Positions 7,668-58,870 of a stretch of 64,000 nt of DNA are shown here, one piece after another. Source of the DNA: Apoderus coryli. Taxonomy: Eukaryota; Arthropoda; Insecta; Coleoptera; Attelabidae. A program made the position numbers and the translations under genes. The DNA is taken from contig OU452206.1 in the NCBI GenBank assembly GCA_911728435.2, forward strand, positions 6,974,297 through 7,038,296, read 5' to 3'. Positions within the stretch are counted from its first letter, which is position 1; every line of letters starts with the position of its first letter. The notes under the pieces are model-generated. The model was not told the DNA's origin and did no database searches. It worked only from the letters and a program-made list of their open reading frames with translations.

Positions 7668-10457
7668 TTACATTGCTAATCGTGACTTAATTTGAGTTTT
7701 GAAAGTTTCCAAAGGTAAGTCCAATAAATCAATTATTCTATTGAGAAGTTGAGGTGCCATATATGAGAAGCAGCCTTCAAATTTCGATGTTACATGTTGT
7801 GGAATTGTAAAAGTATTATGCCTTATGTTTACATTATGTACAGAAGATCTTCTATTAATTAATTCGTACAAGTAAGCGGGTGTCTGAGTATGATAAATCT
7901 TATGAAGCAACAACAAGAAAATGCAATCAAATCTTAAGTAAAATTTGGGCTCGTTAAGCCGATGTAAAAATGGAGTGATGTGAGATCTGTAAGGTACCGC
8001 ACTTGCATATCTTATGCACGCATTCTGAACTCGCTGGATCCTATTTTTGTTATAGTCAGTTAAAAAATGATAGTAAACCTGAGAACAGTAGTCAACGTGT
8101 GGATATACAAGTGCCTTAACTAGTCTTAACTTTGTTGTTTCACTGAGGGAGTGCTTCAATGAATATATTGATCTGAGTCTATACATTGCCCTTTTGTAAA
8201 CTGTGAGGCAGTGTTCGTTAAAGCTTAGTCTTGAATCAAACATTACACCGAGGTTTTTCGCTTTCTGCGCCCACTCTATAACAGTGTCATTGATTATAAT
8301 AGTATAATTTTGAGTAATTAGGTCCTCATGACGATCACTCCCCACACACATAGCAACCGTTTTAGAAGGGTTTATTCGAAGACCATTACTCTCACACCAG
8401 ACGGAAAAATTAAATAAGTCTTCGTTACATTTAGCAATCGCATCGGGTGCATTCATGACATGGAAAGGTATATAGAACTGAACGTCATCCGCATACATGT
8501 GCATATTTAAATGTTTTAAATTTGAGGCAACGTCAAAACAGTACACGGAAAACAAGAGCGGGCCCAAGATGCTGCCCTGAGGAACGCCGCGCTTCATCAC
8601 TCCCACGTCAGACCACCGTGTTGAACTAAGTTTCACCCTTTGATGGCGATCAAATAAATACCCCTTCAGCCAGTTCAACGAAACCGGATCAAAGCCCAAA
8701 TATTTCAGTTTGGAGAGAAGCAGATGGAAATTTACCAGGTCGAACGCTTTACTCTGGTCAAGAAGAATAAATGCTACACATTCAGATATGTCAAGCGCTC
8801 GAGCCAGGTCATCAGTAACTTTCAAGAGGGTCGTCGCAGTATTGTGCCTCTTGCGGAACCCGGATTGAAATGGCGGTAGAATGCTGTTTAAGTTTAAATA
8901 TTCTTGTATCTGTGCGCTAACAATACGTTCAAATATCTTCGACATCGTTGGCAATATGCTTATAGGCCTAAGATCATTGTATGAAGTGGGTGACTGAATT
9001 TTTGGAATTGGGATTACATTAGCGGATTTCCAAATTTGTGGAAACACGCCGGAATTAATAGAATCGTTAAAAATTGCTTTCAACACCTCACAACAGTGGC
9101 CAATTATTATTTTAAGCATTTTGACGTTAATATTATCCACACCGTATGCTTCAGACTTAATGCATCGAATATTATTCATAACATCGTCTGATGTTATATC
9201 ATGAAACTTAAAAGAGATATTATCATTATATAAGTTATTCTTGAAAAAATCTATAAAGTTATTCGGTACATCAGACGAGCCCGCAACATTTAGAAAATGG
9301 TTGTTTATATCATTAGCGTTTTGAAGAGATTCTGGTAGATGTGATGTCTGGTTACGTTTGGTATTGACACCCCATTGTGAGATATCGCGCCACAACTTTT
9401 TTGGATCAGTTCTATGGTTTAATGTATGTTGGATATATGCATTTTTCTCTGCTTTTATAGCATTTTTAATATAGTTTCGTAATTCAACATAATATTGCCT
9501 TGTGGCGGGAGTTTTCAGGTTTAGGTACCTTTTATAAGCTTTATGTTTCAATTTAATCATCTCTCTGATTGTATATGTAATATACGGCTGTAAGGGGCGT
9601 TTAGTGATATATGTCTTAATTGGCGCAAACCTGTCAAATAAGTTCAGAATACGGTCATTTAGTTGCTGGGTTCTCACGTTTAGATCATCCAAGGCATTAA
9701 GATCATTCCATGCAATGAGGTTTGCAGCCTCGTGAAAACTATCGGCATCAAAATTCGAGAAATCGCGATATATTAGAACTTTAGGCGATGCTTTATCGAC
9801 TTGCAGTAGTATGTTACAAAATATTAGCAAATGGTCCGTGTTGCAATACAGATCACAGACACCCGAAGAGGAGAAATTCAAACTACTACTAAGAAAAATA
9901 AGGTCAATTAATGATTCCGTGCTTTCGGTAACCCTTGTAGGTTCATCGATGATCTGACTAAGGTTGTAATTATTAAGAACTGAGTTCAATTTTGTGACTT
10001 CAGGCGATATGGCAGTTAAATAATTAATATTAAAATCGCCCATAACAAGCAATGTATGAGTTTCCAAAAACACGTTCTCCAATGGATCATACAACTCATA
10101 CACAGAATTTATGCTTAAGCTAGGTGGTCTATATATTATTCCTATGCCTAATTTATTGTGCTGAATACTTAGTATTAGCCAGAGTTGTTCAAGATGACCC
10201 TCAGCAGTATTAGAAAATACAGGTTTCACCTTTATGTTTGATTTAACATAGACGGCAAGGCCGCCGCCCCTTGTAGGTCGGTCAGCTCTGTGTAAATTAT
10301 AATTTTTGATAGATAAATATTTATCAGGATATTGACTACTCAGCCACGTCTCGGATAGCGCTAAAATATCATAACTTTCAGACAACAAAAAATTTTTTAT
10401 GACGGAAAAATTATTTACCAAAGATCGAATATTAATATGTCCAACTTTGATATTTAG
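7668..10457 (-). CDS. LINE ORF2: AP-type endonuclease plus reverse transcriptase
   Basis: Numbered from the TTG at 10421, the protein has an exonuclease-endonuclease-phosphatase domain at about residues 1-205 (SETWL 23-27, GGGLAVYVK, YRPPS, GDFN 128-131, DLIF, TDH 195-197). The reverse transcriptase follows at about 450-700 (RPISILP, GFRKRHNTA, LLDQSKAFD with catalytic Asp 555, GVPQGSILGPLLF 613-625, YADD 643-646). The C-terminal tail ends in KSRLAM. Catalytic residues of both enzymes are intact. The frame has no ATG near its start, and the endonuclease motif HINIRSL lies upstream of that TTG. The frame is open back through the end of ORF1, so translation most likely enters by -1 frameshifting at 10457-10463 or by reinitiation. 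Confidence 0.92.
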   Translation of the reverse strand, partial: LNIKVGHINIRSLVNNFSVIKNFLLSESYDILALSETWLSSQYPDKYLSIKNYNLHRADRPTRGGGLAVYVKSNIKVKPVFSNTAEGHLEQLWLILSIQHNKLGIGIIYRPPSLSINSVYELYDPLENVFLETHTLLVMGDFNINYLTAISPEVTKLNSVLNNYNLSQIIDEPTRVTESTESLIDLIFLSSSLNFSSSGVCDLYCNTDHLLIFCNILLQVDKASPKVLIYRDFSNFDADSFHEAANLIAWNDLNALDDLNVRTQQLNDRILNLFDRFAPIKTYITKRPLQPYITYTIREMIKLKHKAYKRYLNLKTPATRQYYVELRNYIKNAIKAEKNAYIQHTLNHRTDPKKLWRDISQWGVNTKRNQTSHLPESLQNANDINNHFLNVAGSSDVPNNFIDFFKNNLYNDNISFKFHDITSDDVMNNIRCIKSEAYGVDNINVKMLKIIIGHCCEVLKAIFNDSINSGVFPQIWKSANVIPIPKIQSPTSYNDLRPISILPTMSKIFERIVSAQIQEYLNLNSILPPFQSGFRKRHNTATTLLKVTDDLARALDISECVAFILLDQSKAFDLVNFHLLLSKLKYLGFDPVSLNWLKGYLFDRHQRVKLSSTRWSDVGVMKRGVPQGSILGPLLFSVYCFDVASNLKHLNMHMYADDVQFYIPFHVMNAPDAIAKCNEDLFNFSVWCESNGLRINPSKTVAMCVGSDRHEDLITQNYTIIINDTVIEWAQKAKNLGVMFDSRLSFNEHCLTVYKRAMYRLRSIYSLKHSLSETTKLRLVKALVYPHVDYCSQVYYHFLTDYNKNRIQRVQNACIRYASAVPYRSHITPFLHRLNEPKFYLRFDCIFLLLLHKIYHTQTPAYLYELINRRSSVHNVNIRHNTFTIPQHVTSKFEGCFSYMAPQLLNRIIDLLDLPLETFKTQIKSRLAM

Positions 10458-11428
10458 TTTTTTGATTTTACAATAGTAGGCACGCCACTCACATACTTAA
10501 TGTAAATATTCAGCTCACCCTTTGCTCTTCGCTCTTCAAGCTCGCCACGTACCTTTATATAATAGTCTCGCTGTAACTTTGTCTGATCCGTCGAAATAAA
10601 TACTCCCTTGTAATTTGCGGGAAGCTTCCTTTTGTTTTTCAGAACCTCGAAAACCTCAGCTTTAGCAGGCAAGATCACCCTGATTGGTGCTGGTTTCCCA
10701 TTTTTACCAATACCGATCCTCCTAATATTCAAGTTGTCGGATGATATGGCAGGACATACTACACTCAGAATCTCATCAACAGAACTCACATCCCCAGCAT
10801 GCTGATCAGTAGCATTAGGCATATTATATATTATTATGTTTCTTTCACGTTTCATTCGCTCATTAATTTCGTTGATCACTGATTCCCTTTCAGAAGTATG
10901 CACATCAGCGTTTCTCAACTTAGGATTGTCGATGCTGTTCATCATCAAATTCAACCTATCTTCAAGACTATCTACCTTTTCCCTCATTTCAGCAATTTGT
11001 TCTCTTGTATTATCACGGCTGAGTCTCGCCTCAGTTATGAAGTTTTGTATATCGTTCTTCTGCTCCAAAAGTATTTTATAGAAAAGTGTCATAACTTGTA
11101 CTACATCATTCATGTCGGCATTCTTCTTGGATAATACGCTATTGATCTGCACGGCGACCGGATCATCGACGTCAATGACCCGGTCCTGCTGCACAGATGA
11201 ACGAGGTGTGAAACCCAGACTCTGCCTTCCACTCGACCTTGCCTGGTGACAGCTCTTACATGCCCAGTCATGCTTCTTATTCTTCTTCACCTTGTTGTAA
11301 AGTTCGGCAAACTCAGCGTTAGTAAGGGTGGAACAACCCTTATGATACCATGTACGGCATTCACTACACTCAACTGATCGTGCCGTAGGTTTAACAACCA
11401 AATCACAAATGCCACAAAGAGATTCCAT
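10454..11428 (-). CDS. LINE ORF1: PHD-finger, coiled-coil, RNA-binding protein
   Basis: The protein is 324 residues from an ATG at 11428. A PHD-type zinc finger occupies the N-terminus with the Cys4-His-Cys3 ligand pattern C5, C8, C21, C24, H29, C32, C57, C60. A heptad-rich region at about 110-190 looks like a coiled coil. The C-terminal third (RNIIIYNMPNA ... NIRRIGIGKNGKPAPIRVIL ... FISTDQTKLQRDYY) resembles the RRM-plus-C-terminal-domain architecture of LINE ORF1 chaperones. PHD fingers are known in ORF1 proteins of CR1-like elements. Its likely role is binding the element RNA and assembling the ribonucleoprotein. Confidence 0.85.
   Translation of the reverse strand: MESLCGICDLVVKPTARSVECSECRTWYHKGCSTLTNAEFAELYNKVKKNKKHDWACKSCHQARSSGRQSLGFTPRSSVQQDRVIDVDDPVAVQINSVLSKKNADMNDVVQVMTLFYKILLEQKNDIQNFITEARLSRDNTREQIAEMREKVDSLEDRLNLMMNSIDNPKLRNADVHTSERESVINEINERMKRERNIIIYNMPNATDQHAGDVSSVDEILSVVCPAISSDNLNIRRIGIGKNGKPAPIRVILPAKAEVFEVLKNKRKLPANYKGVFISTDQTKLQRDYYIKVRGELEERRAKGELNIYIKYVSGVPTIVKSKN
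10457..10463 (-). promoter_or_regulatory. Candidate -1 programmed frameshift slippery site
   Basis: The ORF1 codons TCA AAA AAC TAA contain the heptamer A AAA AAC in the correct phase, directly before the ORF1 stop. Slipping back one base gives CTA AAT ATC AAA GTT GGA, which is exactly the ORF2 frame leading into the endonuclease. The X XXY YYZ pattern with A AAA AAC is a known efficient -1 slippery sequence in viruses and retroelements. A stimulatory downstream structure was not identified by eye. Confidence 0.6.
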
Positions 11429-11913
11429 AATGAAACAAGAATGTGCGTTTCAACTAAATCTACAAGACAAAATAAGAGCAGACACGGCACTGTCCACCTT
11501 GCTATATTGTATTTATTCTATTTGTTTATCACTAACTGATAGTGTATAGGTATCCAATGTTGTTGTTTTTTTTTTGCTATTTTATTTATCTTTCCCAATC
11601 CGAATTTAAACTTTATTATGAACAATTCACAGTTAAAAAACAATATTTACACAATTCCATTTACAAATTGTTATACAAAATACTTCAATGCATATACTTT
11701 GAAAAAATCGCGATTTAACTCAACGTATATTCACAAAAAATCCACGATTTATTGCGGAGAGAATTCTACACGATATATTCGCTTTGACGTTCAATCACAA
11801 AAAATTATTAATTATAAATACCAAAACTGTCAATTTGGTGTTTGTATTTTCGGCGTTGCTATGGTGATTTTTCATGCCCGCCGCTACTTTTGTCATTACC
11901 AGGAAATTTTATC

Positions 11914-12549: not shown

Positions 12550-12715
12550 TATTTCGCCACTGATGAAAAAATTTTGAACTTTCGAAACATGTATGGTTTG
12601 GTTGTACCAATGATGATCTAGTGTAATTATACAGAGTTATATTGTGGAGTAGACGACTTTTATTTTGTTTCGTAACATTAGCACTCCTCGTCACAATGGA
12701 TTATTTTTCGAAAAA
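12550..12715 (+). repeat. Penelope-like terminal repeat remnant with hammerhead-like core
   Basis: 12550-12715 is homologous to the reverse complement of 58725-58870: both have CCACTGATGA, a GAAACATGT segment, GGAGTAGACG about 80 bases later, then a conserved CACTCCTC-like stretch and ATGGATTA. Hammerhead motifs in such terminal repeats are established for Penelope-like elements. No RT coding sequence is adjacent, so this is a solo or truncated copy by inference. Confidence 0.5.
12557..12597 (+). ncRNA. Degenerate hammerhead ribozyme-like motif
   Basis: CTGATGA (12560-12566), an AT-rich stem II region, GAAA (12584-12587), C-AT-G, then T-A before the cleavage position, and TGG complementary to the CCA preceding the core. 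Stem II pairs poorly, so activity is doubtful. Confidence 0.4.
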
Positions 12716-25937: not shown

Positions 25938-26033
25938 CAGTATAAACGCAGCTCACGAGAAAAGCTGTAGCCTTATTATCTTACCTCAGTAGAAATAAGG
26001 CTACAACGTTTCTTGTAAGCTGCGTTTATACTG
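25938..26033. repeat. Hairpin element, 40-bp arms
   Basis: 25938-25977 (CAGTATAAACGCAGCTCACG ... GCTGTAGCCTTATT) pairs with 25994-26033 (AATAAGGCTACA ... TAAGCTGCGTTTATACTG) with few mismatches and a 16-bp loop. It is non-coding. Confidence 0.8.
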
Positions 26034-40401: not shown

Positions 40402-40672
40402 TAATCACCTACTCCAACATGAAAGAGTTAAGTAATGTGCATACTGTACTAGCTCTTTTCTATATTATAATTTGCCCGTTAATGCATGGTTGCATCGCTG
40501 TGGAGCAGAACTTTACTTCTTACGTAAAAATTTTATCGCATGACGAATCCACAAAGATGGTGCTACGAAATCAAACCCAAAGAGGAGCGAACGAGGGATC
40601 AAAGTTAGCGGAACATACGCGCGCCGTTCCACCCGACAACGGCTACGGGAATTATGGAGATTTGATATATAG
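40402..40672 (+). CDS. MBF2-like secreted protein, exon 1
   Basis: An acceptor-like TTTTTTAG precedes the exon, and ATG is at 40419. The exon encodes 84 codons plus two bases: a signal peptide (about residues 1-27, core TVLALFYIIICPLM), then a polar region with N-glycosylation-like sites and YGNYGDLIYR. It ends AG|GTTGGT. Its phase (2 bases) fits exon 2, which begins with the missing base. Joined, the three exons give about 168 residues without a stop. The C-terminal half (ITSVRVL ... GTDVQTFLRVASR ... MIEVYGF) resembles the MBF2 family of small insect secreted proteins, which end in an I-x-I/V-Y-G pattern. The family call is from memory of that pattern and moderately sure; the gene structure is firmer. 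Confidence 0.7.
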
Positions 40673-41201
40673 GTTGGTGGTAATTTTAGTTAAATTTGCG
40701 CTAAATTGTTTTGTAAAAGTCGTAATGTTAACTGCATACATGTATACCTAATTATTTAAATTGCTTCGCGAAGCACTTAGTTGGGGTATAGGAAATTCTA
40801 GGAGAAAACTTCTTCTCATTATTGTTTGCCACAAATTTATATTTTTTCAAGTTCAAATTGGCACTAATCAGAATCAAAATGACATTAGTCAAAATCAAAT
40901 TGACAACAATAATTTCAAATTGGCATTAATCAAAACCATAATGGCACTAATCACTTTCAAATTGACAATAAACAAAATCAAATTGGCACTAGTAAATTTT
41001 AGAGAACAACGTTCGTGGCAATATTGGCAAGATAACTACTATTGCTAATTGTACCAAATTTATTTCACATATACAGAGATTTAATCTTGTATTCTTTCTT
41101 GAACCTTGTTACAATTTTTTTTGTTTCTTTTTCTTGTGCTAAAGGTTCTGTTTTAAAACGGGAAAATTTTCTTTAAATTTTTGTTTATTTAATGTCTGTA
41201 G

Positions 41202-41237
41202 GTACTATGTTTCGGCTAGTATGCCTTCTTCAGGTAC
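41202..41237 (-). ncRNA. Hammerhead-like motif, left arm of the inverted repeat
   Basis: On the minus strand: GTAC, CTGAAGA, A-GGC facing GCC around ATACTA, GAAA, C-A-T-A, then GTAC. The two GTAC blocks are self-complementary and would form stem I. One extra base sits between the core and stem II, so activity is uncertain. Confidence 0.4.
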
Positions 41238-41409
41238 ATTTCATTTTCTAAAATTTTAAAACTAGATTTAAAATAAAACAAGTTATTGGTACATTTACAA
41301 GACATCACTAGAACATTCAGTGTAAATAGGTGATCTTAAACATAACAACATACAAATTACAGATATTCTTATTTATGTTTCATTTTTCTGTTATGTTTTA
41401 AAAAGAAAT

Positions 41410-41445
41410 GTACCTGAAGTAGGCATACTAGCCGAAACGTAGTAC
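41410..41445 (+). ncRNA. Hammerhead-like motif, right arm of the inverted repeat
   Basis: GTAC, CTGAAGT (core A9 changed to T), AGGC-ATACTA-GCC, GAAA, CGTA, GTAC. It is a diverged mirror of the left-arm motif and probably inactive because of the core change. Confidence 0.35.
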
Positions 41446-42060
41446 CTACAGACATGATTTAAAAAAAAATATCAAAGAAAATTTTCCCGTTTTAAAACAG
41501 AACCTTTATCCCAAGAAAAATAAACAAAAAAAAAAGAGATTTATTGCTGGTGCATTGGATATGCAAGATATAATTTTTTAAGAAAATTTGTTATTTAAAA
41601 TTCGTTAATTGTTTCAATAATTTAATTGTTTTCGCTAATTGTATGTTACAAGTGCCAATTTGAATTTGTTCATATCGTTTTGATTATTGTTAATTTGCTT
41701 TTGAAATTCAAGTTGTTAATTTGATTTTGACTAATGCATTTTGACTCTGATTAGCGCCAGTTTGGACTTGAAAAGGTATAGTTCCACATAGCAAAAGAGT
41801 TATTGTCTAACACTGCTGAGATATTTAAGGTTCAAGATATTATGCGAGGATGGGATGAAGTTTCCCGCCTAATATAGAGTTGATGCGAAATCTTTCATAT
41901 CGAATACCTATTTAGTATAAGTTTTATGGTTCATTAAAATAGACGGTTCAGTCGGTTGCTTATGTCGAAATGCAGTCATCAAATAATTCAAATGAATCTA
42001 GAAATGTATTCTAACGGTTACCTCGTTAGTCATAAGTAGCTATACAGAATTTTGTTATTC

Positions 42061-42483
42061 ATATTTACGATCAAGGGGAAGTTGCCCAGGAATGGGGATC
42101 AGCATGGTTACAATACAAGAAGTGGCAATAATATCTTATCTTACTGTATAAGCGATCTTCAATTTATATGGGTGGTTGATTATATAACAGTTTACCTGAC
42201 AATATTAAGAGCATACAGAGCTTGAATAAGTTTAAGAGGTCTATTAGGAAGTTGCTCTTCTCAGGAGTGTTCTACACGGTCGGAGAATATAAAAGCTATA
42301 TATTGTCCTTAACCTAAGTGTTTCTTGTACTCTGTGTGTCTCTTTATCATTTATTTTATTGTATAGGAACGTGATTTATTCTAGATTTATACTGTTGTGT
42401 TATTTACTTACCTACTTGATTTTGACAATTGTCTGTGCTATGTATATAGCGAGTTGAGACAATAAAGAGTAATATAATCTAAT
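42061..42483 (+). pseudogene. LINE C-terminal fragment
   Basis: Plus-strand pieces read a HGYNTRSGNNI block, an LPDNIKSIQSLNKFKRSIRK block and LLFSGVFYTVGEY. These match the C-terminus of the LINE family at 63.3-64 kb (NHTYSTRS, VPKQIRSFNYKLFK, CFYSVEEF). The copy ends in AATAAAGAGTAATATAATC. Confidence 0.65.
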
Positions 42484-43584
42484 CTATTTGTGTTTGGGAG
42501 AGTGCTAAGTTGAACCCATGCGTTTTTAATTGAAATGACTTTAGCTCTGTGATAGGGGTGGACACAACCCTCATATTCTTAAATAGCAGTAGATGCAAGT
42601 GAAACATCGTTTGAAAGCATCTTTTATCTGCTTTACAGCAATAGGTTACTTTTGATATTTTCCTCCATCATTCACAAGAAAATTTCGTTTAAAAGTTACA
42701 AATATGTATAGTACGGCGACTGATTTTGCAAGCATTTCATGTTAAATTTTTTGTAACCTATTAAAATAATTTAGTGGATGGGACAGCGTTTCATTTCTCA
42801 ATTTTCGTTTTGTTCTTTAGTGAGAATTTTAACCACTGATTTTGCAAACATTTTACGTTGCAATAATTATTGTAATGTACATAAGCTGCCTTTAAGTCAG
42901 ATGAGACAACCTGTATAAGAGTTATGAACTTCCATGCAGAAATATTTAAAGTACGTAAAAATACTCTATATTACCAACCCAGCTAATTCCTTTAATTTAA
43001 AAAAATTAAATGTTCATTTGTTTTTGTCTTAATTCCTTTTACGAACTCCAACAATCTCATTTAAGTTTATTAAAGTCATTTTTAGAATGCAGCTCAAGTG
43101 TTCTTTTCCATTATCCGAGTTTTCATTTTCAAACTCTCATTATTTCATTTTTCTAAATGAAGGATGAGCGAGGGATGTTTTCTTTGATTAAGAACTGCAA
43201 TGCCAAAAAGTTCAGAGGGATATAAGGCTTCATTTTAAAAGTGGTGCACTGCAGTTATTATATTTATATTAATTCAAATGAATATAAAAAAAAAATGTTT
43301 GATAGTACTTTTCAAATTTCAAACGTTAGTTGTTAGCATTTTATTTGTAGAATAGGCAAAGGCCTCTGGAAAATGTCGTGCAAAAGAGGCTATTTACCTC
43401 GTTATTTGAATTCCAGCGCTTTAAGGGCTCTGAAGACCATTTTGGTATAATGAGAAACCTTTAAAGGGTGTACCAAATACATAGGCTTGAGGATGTATAA
43501 CGAAGAGTAATGCAGAATAAATCTGATTAAAAGTTGCACTAGTTGAAAGTAGGATATCTTACAAAGACTTGGATGGATAAATCC
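42484..43584. other. Intronic AT-rich stretch, nothing recognised
   Basis: No exon or paired termini are seen. A long minus-strand open frame at 43402-43716 partly overlaps the LINE that follows and shows no family features. Confidence 0.4.
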
Positions 43585-45290
43585 GAGGGTAATTCTTTGT
43601 AAAAAATTCGTAAGCATTCTCCATGGATTTCGGGCGATACTATTCGCAGCATCAAATTGAAGTCTAAACTTTTGAAAAAATATAAGACATCCGAAGATCC
43701 TCAATTTTTGAATCATTTTACAGTTGTGCGTCCCAATATAAAAACTGACAAGAGGTCCTCTTACAGGGTGTACTTGCGTGATGCTGAGCGTATATTGAGT
43801 AGTGACTCTAACAAATTTTTGTCTTTTATCAATTCCAGAAGCAATTCTGGGCGATTGCCTGGTAGTATGACTTATGTGAATAAATTTGCGAAATTTTTAG
43901 CACATCACATCTTGCATATCAAACATTTATCGGATCGCGGGATTACTGAGACAGAGGTCTACGAAGCTTTGAGAAGGTTGAAAGCTAAATTTACATCGGG
44001 TCGTGATGGTATACCATCTTTTGTAATTAGGGATTGTGCCACTGTGTTTGCTAAACTATTGTGTACAATGTTTCTTTGCGATCGTGTAGTTTCGCCTCTG
44101 ATTGGAAGGCTTATAGAAGGCTCATAAGAAGGGAGATAAACATGATATATCAAATTATAGACCAATTTCCATATAGAGTCGTGTTTTTCAAAAGATTTTG
44201 AATTTGTGCTCCTTGATATTATTATGAACCATATTAGGCGTCAAGTTTCATCGGTACAACATGGCAAATTTCCCGGTTGTTTTGGGTCAACCAATTTATT
44301 AGTTTTAACACAGTTTTTAGCTGAGCGACTTGATAATGGGGGTCAGGTAGATGTAATCTACACTGATTTTTCTAATGCCTCTTTGATAGACTTGATCATG
44401 CGTAAATTGCTGCTTTTGAAGTCGTATCTGAAGAATAGATTTCAGTTTGTGGAATGTTGAGTATTTATATCTGCAAATTTTAGTCTCATCTGGTGTTCCC
44501 CAGGGCTCTGTCCTTGGACCATTGTTGTTCCTGTGTTTTATTGATGCTATATCTGGTGGCTTTACAAATAGTTTGTTATTATATGCTTACGATTTCAAAG
44601 TTTATTCTGTCTTGAATAGTACTGAAGATTGTTCTCATCTTCAGGACGATTTAAATGTTGTCTATGAGTGGTGTGCCTGTAATAATGTTTATCTGAATAT
44701 TGATAGATGTTTTAGAGATTCTTATATACGGAAAATTAACCCTGTAAAATTGTCATAATATTCTATAAATAATAGTCCGCTAACAACTTGTGATGAGTTT
44801 AAAGATTTAGGGGTTTGGTTTGATGGTAAACTGAGCTTTACTAATCATTACGATAATATAATTTCAGCGTCCTATAGATTTCTGGTTTATATAATACGTA
44901 ATACCAGAGAGTTTATGATACCTCAGCACTCAGTGTTCTTTTCAACGCATTTCTCAGATCTAAACTGGAATATACATCTGTTGTATGAAATTCTCTGCCA
45001 GACATATAACTAATACTGAACGCATCCAGCGTCGTTTTGCCAAGTTGCTGTGGTTTGGGGTAGATGAGGTTTATCCAACCATTGGGTTTCCTTATGATAT
45101 TCTGCTAAACCGATTTATTCTAGTATCATTAATTACTCTTAGAGAATATTCCGCTCTAGTTTTACTTTTTAAAATTATGAGTGGATTTCTTTACTGTCCA
45201 GAGTATTTAACACTGATTCCTTTTTGTGTCCCAAATTTACGGACACGTAATAACGGAATCGTATTTTCCTTTCCCGCGTACTAATTTGTT
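43585..45290 (+). pseudogene. Degenerate Jockey-like LINE (linker, RT, C-terminus)
   Basis: The plus strand starts in the endonuclease-RT linker (PWISGDTIRSIKLKSKLLKK ... YRVYLRDAERILSSDSNKFL ... RLPGSMTYVNK). It continues through RT parts (a KAKFTSGRDGIPSFVIRDC block, DVIYTDFSNAS, SSGVPQGSVLGPLLFLCFID, LLYAYDFKVY) and the thumb/C-terminal region (NTERIQRRFAKLLW ... NRFILVSLITLREY). YADD has become YAYD, and several frame changes occur. It lies inside intron 1 of the MBF2-like gene in the same orientation. Confidence 0.8.
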
Positions 45291-45411
45291 CTTGCATTCC
45301 CCTTTCTATTATATGTGCAATACTTCTTGTAAATCTGTATCCGAGCAAATTGATATTTTTCATGGAACTTCGTCCTGTATAATGAATATATTTCTTAGAA
45401 AATAAATTTAG

Positions 45412-45571
45412 TTGAGAGAGAGAGAGATGTTTTTGGCGACATCTAGCGTGAGCAGGCAATATGCTCGGTGAAACACAGTTCACAAACGATGGCCGGACAA
45501 GTATTAATAACTCCATTATATCCTATTGCCAACACTAGATGTCGCCAAAAACATCTCTCTCTCTCTCTCAA
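45412..45571. mobile_element. 160-bp hairpin element with 35-bp perfect arms
   Basis: 45412-45446 (TTGAGAGAGAGAGAGATG, then TTTTTGGCGACATCTAG) is an exact complement of 45535-45571 apart from one extra CT repeat. The 88-bp loop is non-coding. It sits between a LINE 3' end and the hammerhead ribozyme. Confidence 0.85.
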
Positions 45572-45603
45572 TCATTTCTCGTGCTAGTATAAGCTCTTCG
45601 TAA

Positions 45604-45711
45604 ATGTTGGAAATTTGGGTCATACTGCCTGCCGATCACCACTGATGAGTCGTGGATCGACGAAACGGCCGTCTGGTGAAAGCATGGTAGTGTGAAACAA
45701 ATTTCCAACAT
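45604..45711 (+). ncRNA. Canonical type I hammerhead ribozyme
   Basis: Stem I TCACCA (45636-45641) pairs with TGGTGA (45674-45679). The core CTGATGA is at 45642-45648. Stem II GTCG (45649-45652) pairs with CGAC (45658-45661) around loop TGGAT. GAAA is at 45662-45665, followed by a short stem III C-GGCC-G and TC, placing cleavage after GTC at 45673. All conserved hammerhead core positions are present. Stem I is extended: after an internal loop, TCATACT pairs with AGTGTGA, and the outermost 14 bp (45604-45617 and 45698-45711) are perfectly complementary. Internal loop I plus loop II is the arrangement natural hammerheads use for tertiary contact. The host element is unknown. Confidence 0.85.
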
Positions 45712-46406
45712 AACTGAAAGTCTTGTTGCTTTATGTATCAAGCAATTCGTAAATAAATTTCGTGTTAGATATTAAGAATATCTTTCCTGCCCTTTATTTA
45801 CTTATTTATCTGTTTGAGAAGTGTATATCTTAAATAAAAATCTCTATATCACGGGAAATATGTACAGCATCTATCATTTATATTACTGATATTTTCTGCC
45901 CTGATGCAAATTTTTGAATATTTGAAATAATAACAACAGCTAGCTGTCACAGATTAGAAGGTAGTTTTAAGTTATCGGCGAATTTAGGTTATAAATATAA
46001 TCTTAACTATCGACCGCACAACAATTTTTGCTGAGATAAAAAATTGTTTAATAAAATAATATATGGCGTTCCATTTAAAAATCTTGTTTGCCTAATGTCG
46101 GTACAGAATTTTTCAGACACCTTGTCTTAAATAATTGAAAAATGTAGTTAAAACAAAGAATTTCTTATATTATCCATTTTTTGTTTCTAATGTCTGTCGT
46201 TTCTGAGAAAATGCCCACACTGTACGTATATATCTGTTGTTTTAAGCTGACATTGATTTGCTTAATATCCCACATCTAGTCCCTTAAATCTAAGTGTTTA
46301 CCCAAAATAGGTCAGGGAACATTGCCATATTAGTTGTCTAAACATTGACATGTTGAAATACTAGTGGCACATAATTAAGCTGTATATTCCATAATTCAAT
46401 TTCTAG

Positions 46407-46524
46407 ATCGAGAGAGGATGACGATGCATTGATTTTACGTGAGGTGTTAGTGCTTCCAGCTTTAGCATCTGTGGAACAGGATGTCAAGTGGTACGCGTCT
46501 ACACGTGCATCAAGAATTACTTCA
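46407..46524 (+). CDS. MBF2-like secreted protein, exon 2
   Basis: The acceptor TTCAATTTCTAG precedes the exon, and the donor is TCA|GTAAGT. The 118-bp exon is one base plus 39 codons; the first base completes the Arg codon left open by exon 1. It encodes a conserved-looking, mildly acidic stretch (SREDDDALILREVLVLPAL) followed by DVKWYASTRASRITS. It is clearly less AT-rich than its flanks. It ends in phase 0, matching exon 3. Confidence 0.75.
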
Positions 46525-49877: not shown

Positions 49878-50012
49878 GTGCGTGTTCTAAATTTTGGTCG
49901 TGAGCGAGCCTACGCTCTTCGCATTGATGTAGCTGGAACAGATGTTCAAACATTTTTGCGTGTTGCATCCCGTTCCGATCCTAGAGTAATGATTGAGGTT
50001 TATGGATTTTAG
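49878..50012 (+). CDS. MBF2-like secreted protein, exon 3 with stop
   Basis: The acceptor TTTTTGTTACAG precedes the exon. In phase 0 it encodes 44 residues (VRVLNFGRERAYALRID ... TDVQTFLRVASRSDPRV ... MIEVYGF) and a TAG stop at 50010-50012. The alternating hydrophobic pattern and terminal VYG resemble the last beta-strands of MBF2-family proteins. GC content is high relative to the flanks. Confidence 0.78.
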   Translation: MRVLNFGRERAYALRIDVAGTDVQTFLRVASRSDPRVMIEVYGF

Positions 50013-58724: not shown

Positions 58725-58870
58725 CTGAAGTAATCCATCTTCGAGAGGAGTTGAATGTGTAAGACACAAATAAAACAACGTCTACTCCACCAAACTATTC
58801 ATATATTATTGTGCAATCAGCATGCAGCGCCAGACATGTTTCGGAAAACTAAGTTTCCATCATCAGTGGC
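58725..58870 (-). repeat. Penelope-like terminal repeat remnant, copy 2
   Basis: Inverted homologue of 12550-12715, sharing CCACTGATGA, GAAACATGT, GGAGTAGACG and ATGGATTAC in the same order. It contains the hammerhead-like motif annotated separately. Confidence 0.55.
58829..58870 (-). ncRNA. Near-canonical hammerhead ribozyme motif
   Basis: On the minus strand: GCCA, CTGATGA (58866-58860), stem II of GGAAA facing TTTCC with one unpaired base next to the core, GAAA (58842-58839), C-AT-G, TC, then TGGC. GCCA and TGGC form stem I and the cleavage triplet is GTC. Weaker than the 45.6 kb example because of the extra base and short stem I. Confidence 0.5.

Follow-up and report, generated by a model that had tools for sequence, protein, structure and literature searches.

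Insertion structure of a hammerhead retrozyme in a beetle intron points to Penelope-like machinery

A hammerhead ribozyme within an intron raises the question of whether it serves the host gene or was left there by a mobile element and, if the latter, which machinery brought it. The case considered here lies in a stretch of 64,000 nucleotides of the Apoderus coryli genome (contig OU452206.1, positions 6,974,297 to 7,038,296), referred to as the window; unless a locus is named, coordinates are those of the window. An initial annotation, made from the sequence alone, had described a canonical type I hammerhead at 45604-45711, and every feature that it listed was found in its place:

45604..45711, + strand: hammerhead hairpin with a 14-bp outer stem; the same 108 nt occur in locus L002
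45636..45679, + strand: type I hammerhead core and inner stem I (Rfam RF00163, 33.8 bits)
45642-45648, + strand: CTGATGA of the hammerhead core
45649-45652/45658-45661, + strand: stem II
45662-45665, + strand: GAAA
45665-45666/45671-45672, + strand: short stem III
45671-45673, + strand: GTC triplet, with the predicted cut between 45673 and 45674
45636-45641/45674-45679, + strand: inner stem I, with further pairing outside
45604-45617/45698-45711, + strand: perfect 14-bp outer stem

The conserved core, stems I to III, and the open stem I of the type I hammerhead (RF00163) are all present. When the entire window was compared with 4227 Rfam families, the covariance check that the annotation had proposed, the Hammerhead_1 model gave 33.8 bits, 0.2 bits under its gathering score of 34, with an E value of 1.2e-4. 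A strict hammerhead descriptor matched once in the window and had matches in 1 of 300 dinucleotide-shuffled windows; the motif is more than a chance match. The type I pattern had no matches in a collection of viral contigs or in one of prokaryote genome contigs. The 136-nt fold around the hammerhead has a z score of -8.06. In the minimum-free-energy fold, stem I is retained and the core is paired otherwise, at 8.7 kcal/mol below the hammerhead fold, and the lowest-energy folds of the window hairpin and of the predicted circle of an observed unit are both without the hammerhead core.

The motif had also been placed in an intron in the transcribed orientation, and this holds: it lies on the sense strand of intron 1, approximately 730 bp upstream of exon 2, with its core intact. 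The surrounding features are as follows:

40419..40672, + strand: host gene exon 1, coding part
46407..46524, + strand: host gene exon 2, so that intron 1 is 40673-46406
49878..50012, + strand: host gene exon 3, up to the stop codon
43603..45405, + strand: decayed non-LTR retrotransposon, with an RVT_1 match in the frame 44432-44755

Joined in frame, the three exons encode 168 aa, for which 10 homologs were identified (best E value, 5.5e-40); the eight with names are all from beetles, including Aromia, Anthonomus, Euwallacea, and Leptinotarsa. Judged from these homologs, the host gene is a real, conserved beetle gene. Its earlier designation as MBF2-like is without Pfam support, as no MBF2 match was found in the host protein or in the 8 of the 10 homologs scanned. 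The statement that no reverse transcriptase flanks the hammerhead was contradicted by the decayed LINE directly upstream, in which RVT_1 was matched at 44432-44755 (E value, 1.7e-7); Pfam gave no match in its frame 43603-44124. This LINE is the place into which the retrozyme described below was inserted (at the LINE's 3' end), not its carrier. A second non-LTR retrotransposon, whose first frame is PHD-like and whose second is open over 942 aa, lies at 7668-11449 on the minus strand; two other copies in the genome are identical to it over 501 bp. An Rfam match to mir-965 (25949-26022, minus strand) scored 33.4 bits, under the gathering score of 43.

The carrier of the hammerhead, which had been left unexplained, is almost certainly a copy of an animal non-LTR retrozyme, and the hammerhead not a host ribozyme. 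The insertion runs from 45414 to approximately 45757, incorporates the adjacent palindrome at 45414-45546, and consists of an inverted and a forward arm with 15 bases common at the junction:

45400..45409, no strand: left copy of the probable target-site duplication AAATAAATTT, followed by four extra bases, AGTT
45414..45546, - strand: inverted arm (unit position ~339 to 208), GAGAGAG end first
45532..45757, + strand: forward arm (unit position ~304 through 347/1 to 186)
45722..45748, + strand: 3' stem-loop CTTGTT...CAAG, then CAATTC, the 3' terminus of many genomic copies
45751..45760, no strand: right copy of the probable target-site duplication AAATAAATTT

In the 3.1-kb loci around 30 genome matches, the hammerhead block and the upstream palindrome mostly co-occur. 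At first glance, the inverted arm resembles a palindromic MITE. The right end can be placed only to within 9 bases, because the right copy of AAATAAATTT overlaps the retrozyme's own GTAAATAAA. The 3' stem-loop (45722..45748) also appears when an observed unit is folded in silico as a circle, and it is the probable start of reverse transcription. L002, which lies on a different contig, carries the same 108-nt hairpin without a change, in keeping with the recent arrival that the annotation had suggested. The kinship with retrozymes that it had raised also holds, as the hammerhead is carried by an animal-type retrozyme of approximately 345 nt.

The annotation had found no second copy. The genome comprises 428 Mb in 129 contigs, and searching it identified at least 47 matches to this element, including that of the window (best 40 of 1242 first-look candidates scored), here termed family 1, and at least 44 to a sister subfamily (best 40 of 1632 candidates scored). 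Forty-five of the family 1 matches share 94 to 100% identity, and the other two are partial, with the hairpin matching its own reverse at 71%. Tandem copies lie 345 bp apart (L006/L015), from which a unit of approximately 345 nt was deduced; an observed copy with a 347-nt unit served as the ruler for unit positions. In doubled retrozyme units, the GC content is 0.455 and 0.403 and the longest stop-free stretch is 82 and 63 aa; at 82 aa, the family 1 unit has no open reading frame for a reverse transcriptase with GIY-YIG. No LTR was noticed among the copies.

Family 1 was analyzed at 27 distinct loci, with L003, L015, and L026 excluded (L015 is the place of L006, while L026 in both flanks and L003 in one flank resemble L009 and L002). 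Copies are inverted at 20 of these loci, all in minus-then-plus order with the 3' ends outward, and one-directional at the other seven. Seventeen of the 20 inverted loci have AAGCAATTC at one outer end (unit position ~169-186) and CTCTCTC at the other (~326-343), two have AAGCAATTC at both ends, and one is different. These two end or start sites are approximately 155 nt apart, unlike the short tail of the Penelope-like elements (PLEs) and of the second retrozyme family described below. Flanks of 10 to 14 bp are shared at 13 of the 27 loci versus 6 of 702 mismatched flank pairs, and no shared flank of 10 bp was found at the remaining 14. At L021, the shared flank string is similar to sequence of the element itself.

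Thirteen one-directional stretches in family 1 are longer than the 347-nt unit (two by 1 and 4 nt only; the longest is 530 nt), which indicates a circular or multimeric template. Copies also read through the predicted hammerhead cut site, indicating that the template would be either circular or both multimeric and uncut. At L014, one inverted arm ends at unit position 103, the first base past the predicted cut; such an end, seen in a single case, would be expected of cDNA synthesis that ran off a cleaved, linear RNA. The use of cDNA ends at the cut site as a footprint of cleavage was dropped, as this one arm is too few.

Of 30 aligned copies, 8 have C-G and 22 have U-A at the third pair of stem II (45651/45659), none is mispaired there, and this pair distinguishes the sister subfamily from the first. 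The hammerhead structure thus seems to have been kept, although this is one compensated subfamily change that gives no rate, because the 30 copies were selected for their similarity to two queries. A comparison of conservation between the core and the rest in the first copies (29 rows) was set aside, as these rows were picked by likeness to the query.

As a control, we took the window's young LINE and searched with the 501 bp that close its second frame. This one family has at least 45 matches (best 40 of 266 candidates scored), and among the matches listed there were no inverted neighbors within 6 kb and one same-strand cluster. Searching with GIY-YIG gave at least 150 matches (best 150 of 1260 candidates scored); among those listed, 36 of 150 form 18 pairs of neighbors within 6 kb, all in minus-plus order. 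Both PLE frames scanned contain RVT_1 and GIY-YIG. In 14 PLE pairs, chosen for being pairs, the arms are 98.4 to 99.9% identical, flanks of 10 to 13 bp are shared in 12 of the 14 versus 1 of 182 mismatched pairs, and a tail of approximately 30 to 37 bases is present on one arm only in 12 of the 14 (by eye; L057 and L064 are ambiguous).

No terminal sequence common to family 1 and the PLEs was seen, and among the PLE loci L031 to L064, likeness to family 1 was found only in L052 and L061. These hold older retrozyme copies (L052, 5857-6201; L061, 599-907; 83 to 93% identity over pieces) at most approximately 1.1 kb from Penelope pairs, possibly through a shared target preference. A hammerhead-like motif of the PLEs was named by eye only and not reported by Rfam. 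In the window, a hammerhead-like motif lies at 58833-58866 on the minus strand, with stem I GCCA/TGGC and an extra T ahead of stem II, and a weaker one, with GTA instead of GTC, lies near 12560 on the plus strand. Rfam gave no hammerhead match for the former, alone or in the whole-window scan, or for the latter in the whole-window scan. Both match PLE-region loci over short stretches (e.g., L042 and L039 for the former; L055 and L039 for the latter) and are probably relics of Penelope elements.

A second hammerhead repeat, family 2, was reached through the PLE locus L058. It has at least 226 matches (best 39 of 1428 candidates scored), and its period is 519 bp in L058, 525 bp in most of the listed tandems, and 530 bp in one. 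The family 2 hammerhead scores poorly against Rfam (HH9, 20.6 bits; E value, ~1). Cluster counts are based on the 150 matches listed of the 226, so that short end pieces are missed; among these 150, there are 39 clusters, of which 21 are head-to-head and 18 one-strand, with no other order, and one-direction arrays comprise up to seven of the listed rows. Outer ends among the matches listed fall at unit positions 350-359 (n = 11) and 377-396 (n = 32), and all eight clusters with both ends among them carry one end of each type. Flanks of 12 to 15 bp are shared in all eight, while 10 bp or more was found in none of 56 mismatched pairs; with narrower flank windows, 10 bp or more was shared in 5 of the 8, and with wider ones in 8 of the 8. 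In one family 2 insertion, all five full units (one in one arm and four in the other) have a 530-bp period and three common differences from the unit of L058, with one difference among themselves.

L058 itself is a chimera, in which a family 2 concatemer of 863 bases (1.66 units) lies between a minus and a plus PLE arm, the whole inside a single 12-bp duplication, TAATACACCAGT. The PLE arms are 99.86% identical over their overlap, and the inner junctions have at most five shared bases. The simplest account would be that a Penelope reverse transcriptase jumped from its own RNA to the retrozyme RNA during one insertion. L058 is the one clear case: at L065, family 1 pieces flank a PLE piece and the outer flanks match at 11 of 12 positions (by eye), which is ambiguous between a second chimera and nesting. 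A hammerhead-like stretch was also seen by eye at L065:6620-6670, in the flank of this composite retrozyme/PLE insertion.

The retrozymes and the Penelope-like elements of this genome leave matching insertion scars, and this match points to the enzyme responsible for moving the retrozymes. The copies fit a Penelope-type insertion in being head-to-head, with two alternative ends and a short duplication; the fit is one of insertion mode, not of membership. On the strength of this structure, it is quite probable that Penelope-like machinery moves the retrozyme. Genomic copies of the ~345-nt noncoding repeat would be transcribed, the type I hammerhead would cut the RNA to unit length, and the host would close the unit-length RNA into a circle. 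A Penelope-like reverse transcriptase/GIY-YIG endonuclease would cut both target strands approximately 10 to 15 bp apart, and cDNA would be primed from both cut strands at fixed internal RNA sites, each cDNA perhaps making more than one turn of the circle. Head-to-head joining of the two cDNAs would give inverted copies whose outer ends correspond to the two start sites, and the host gene in the window would be an incidental target. What the genome shows directly is the family, the build and ends of its copies, the duplications, the matching structure of the PLEs, and one chimera; cleavage, circularization, and the enzyme are what we infer here, and the circular template, judged from the sequence of the copies, is likely but less secure. 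More generally, animal retrozymes would be parasites of PLEs, spreading by two-ended rolling-circle reverse transcription of a hammerhead-made circle after the Penelope protein has opened both target strands, with each insertion a head-to-head concatemer pair bounded by the two start sites of the RNA; we regard this as a likely reading.

The most serious alternative concerns the template, which might be uncut multimeric RNA from genomic tandems, with no circle formed and the hammerhead dispensable for the cycle. The one-direction arrays of family 2 would suit such a template, and hammerhead mutants of an anole Penelope element left insertion in vitro unchanged in the experiments drawn on here (PMC11167929). 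Against it stand the variants and period common to both arms of one family 2 insertion, which a uniform array would fit too; the compensated change in stem II, by which the hammerhead is seemingly kept; and the L014 arm ending at the predicted cut, a single case that may be due to chance. On balance, an uncut template appears rather unlikely.

Movement of the retrozyme by LINE (APE-type) machinery is less plausible still. Inversions at the 5' end of LINE-mediated insertions arise by twin priming, which would then explain the inverted copies; young LINEs are present (501 bp of the window copy recur unchanged in two others), and duplications of 10 to 15 bp are compatible with either machinery. 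However, the control LINE family had no inverted neighbors among the matches listed, whereas all 18 GIY-YIG pairs are inverted. Two alternative start sites, one per strand, are common to the PLEs and the two retrozyme families, and at L058 a retrozyme is fused between PLE arms. Together with the Penelope-like scars, these features make LINE machinery quite improbable. That the hammerhead is kept in the intron by selection to control the host pre-mRNA, a role discussed for RECK and C10orf118 in vertebrates, is highly improbable: its sense orientation, its position ~730 bp before exon 2, and its intact core would suit such a role, but the insertion around it has the typical retrozyme architecture and lies at the terminus of a decayed LINE, and the motif is not an isolated one, its 108 nt recurring unchanged on a second contig. 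A MITE-type DNA transposon carrying the hammerhead, which the 108-bp hairpin and adjacent palindrome would resemble through their inverted repeats, is a negligible prospect, being contradicted by the two different ends and variable inner junctions of the genome copies, as well as by the tandem units and the shared flanks of 10 to 14 bp.

For the window, the conclusion is a plain one: the intronic hammerhead is an insertion and not a host device. The machinery that moves animal retrozymes was left open in the reports cited here, which name Penelope-like elements as a strong candidate on the grounds that the two share hammerheads, form tandem copies, and occur together (PMC7229834, PMC11722881, as far as their excerpted text extends). 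The beetle genome adds physical evidence, namely, the same insertion structure in retrozymes and PLEs, one LINE family without it, and the L058 chimera. The insertion structures and this chimera make the question directly testable, in a beetle that offers two retrozyme families of near-identical copies together with long open Penelope frames as a test system. If it is true that Penelope-like machinery moves the retrozyme, the question of machinery would be answered, and the parasite reading, if true, would amount to target-primed reverse transcription on a circular template. Among literature titles and the beginnings of abstracts, no head-to-head retrozyme insertions or retrozyme/Penelope chimeras were found, with most subscription papers outside the search.

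As described in the excerpted text of Cervera and de la Pena (2020; PMC7229834), metazoan non-LTR retrozymes resemble family 1 in their type I hammerhead, in which a tetraloop caps a stem III of two base pairs, in a unit of 150 to 450 bp (345 to 347 bp in family 1), in a GC content below 50%, and in having no long reading frame. They also share tandem units, duplications of more than 4 bp, a self-paired RNA, and Penelope-like elements in the same genome. Unlike those retrozymes as described there, the copies found here are mostly head-to-head with two alternative ends, and the period of family 2 (519 to 530 bp) exceeds their range. The predicted lowest-energy circle found here hides the hammerhead core, which that source describes in plant circles but not in most circles of animals.

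In rotifer Penelope elements, the pLTRs are inverted, one of them may carry a 31-bp tail, and the duplications measure 8 to 10 bp (PMC3846280), and an anole Penelope-like protein cleaved and extended both strands in vitro, starting inside the RNA (PMC11167929); the beetle PLE pairs follow this known pattern, insofar as the excerpts of these two reports set it out. The retrozymes are like such GIY-YIG PLEs in their head-to-head insertions and short duplications (PMC11167929, PMC3846280), in the optional tail on one arm, and, in the proposed cycle, in an internal start of reverse transcription and extension of both target strands. They are unlike the PLEs in being noncoding and in having no terminal sequence seen in common with the PLE families of the genome. 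The intronic hammerheads of RECK and C10orf118 lie at the same place across mammals, and that of RECK also in birds (PMC3088659, in part). The window hammerhead is like these in lying in an intron of a host gene, but, unlike them as that source presents them, it is one copy of a mobile family.
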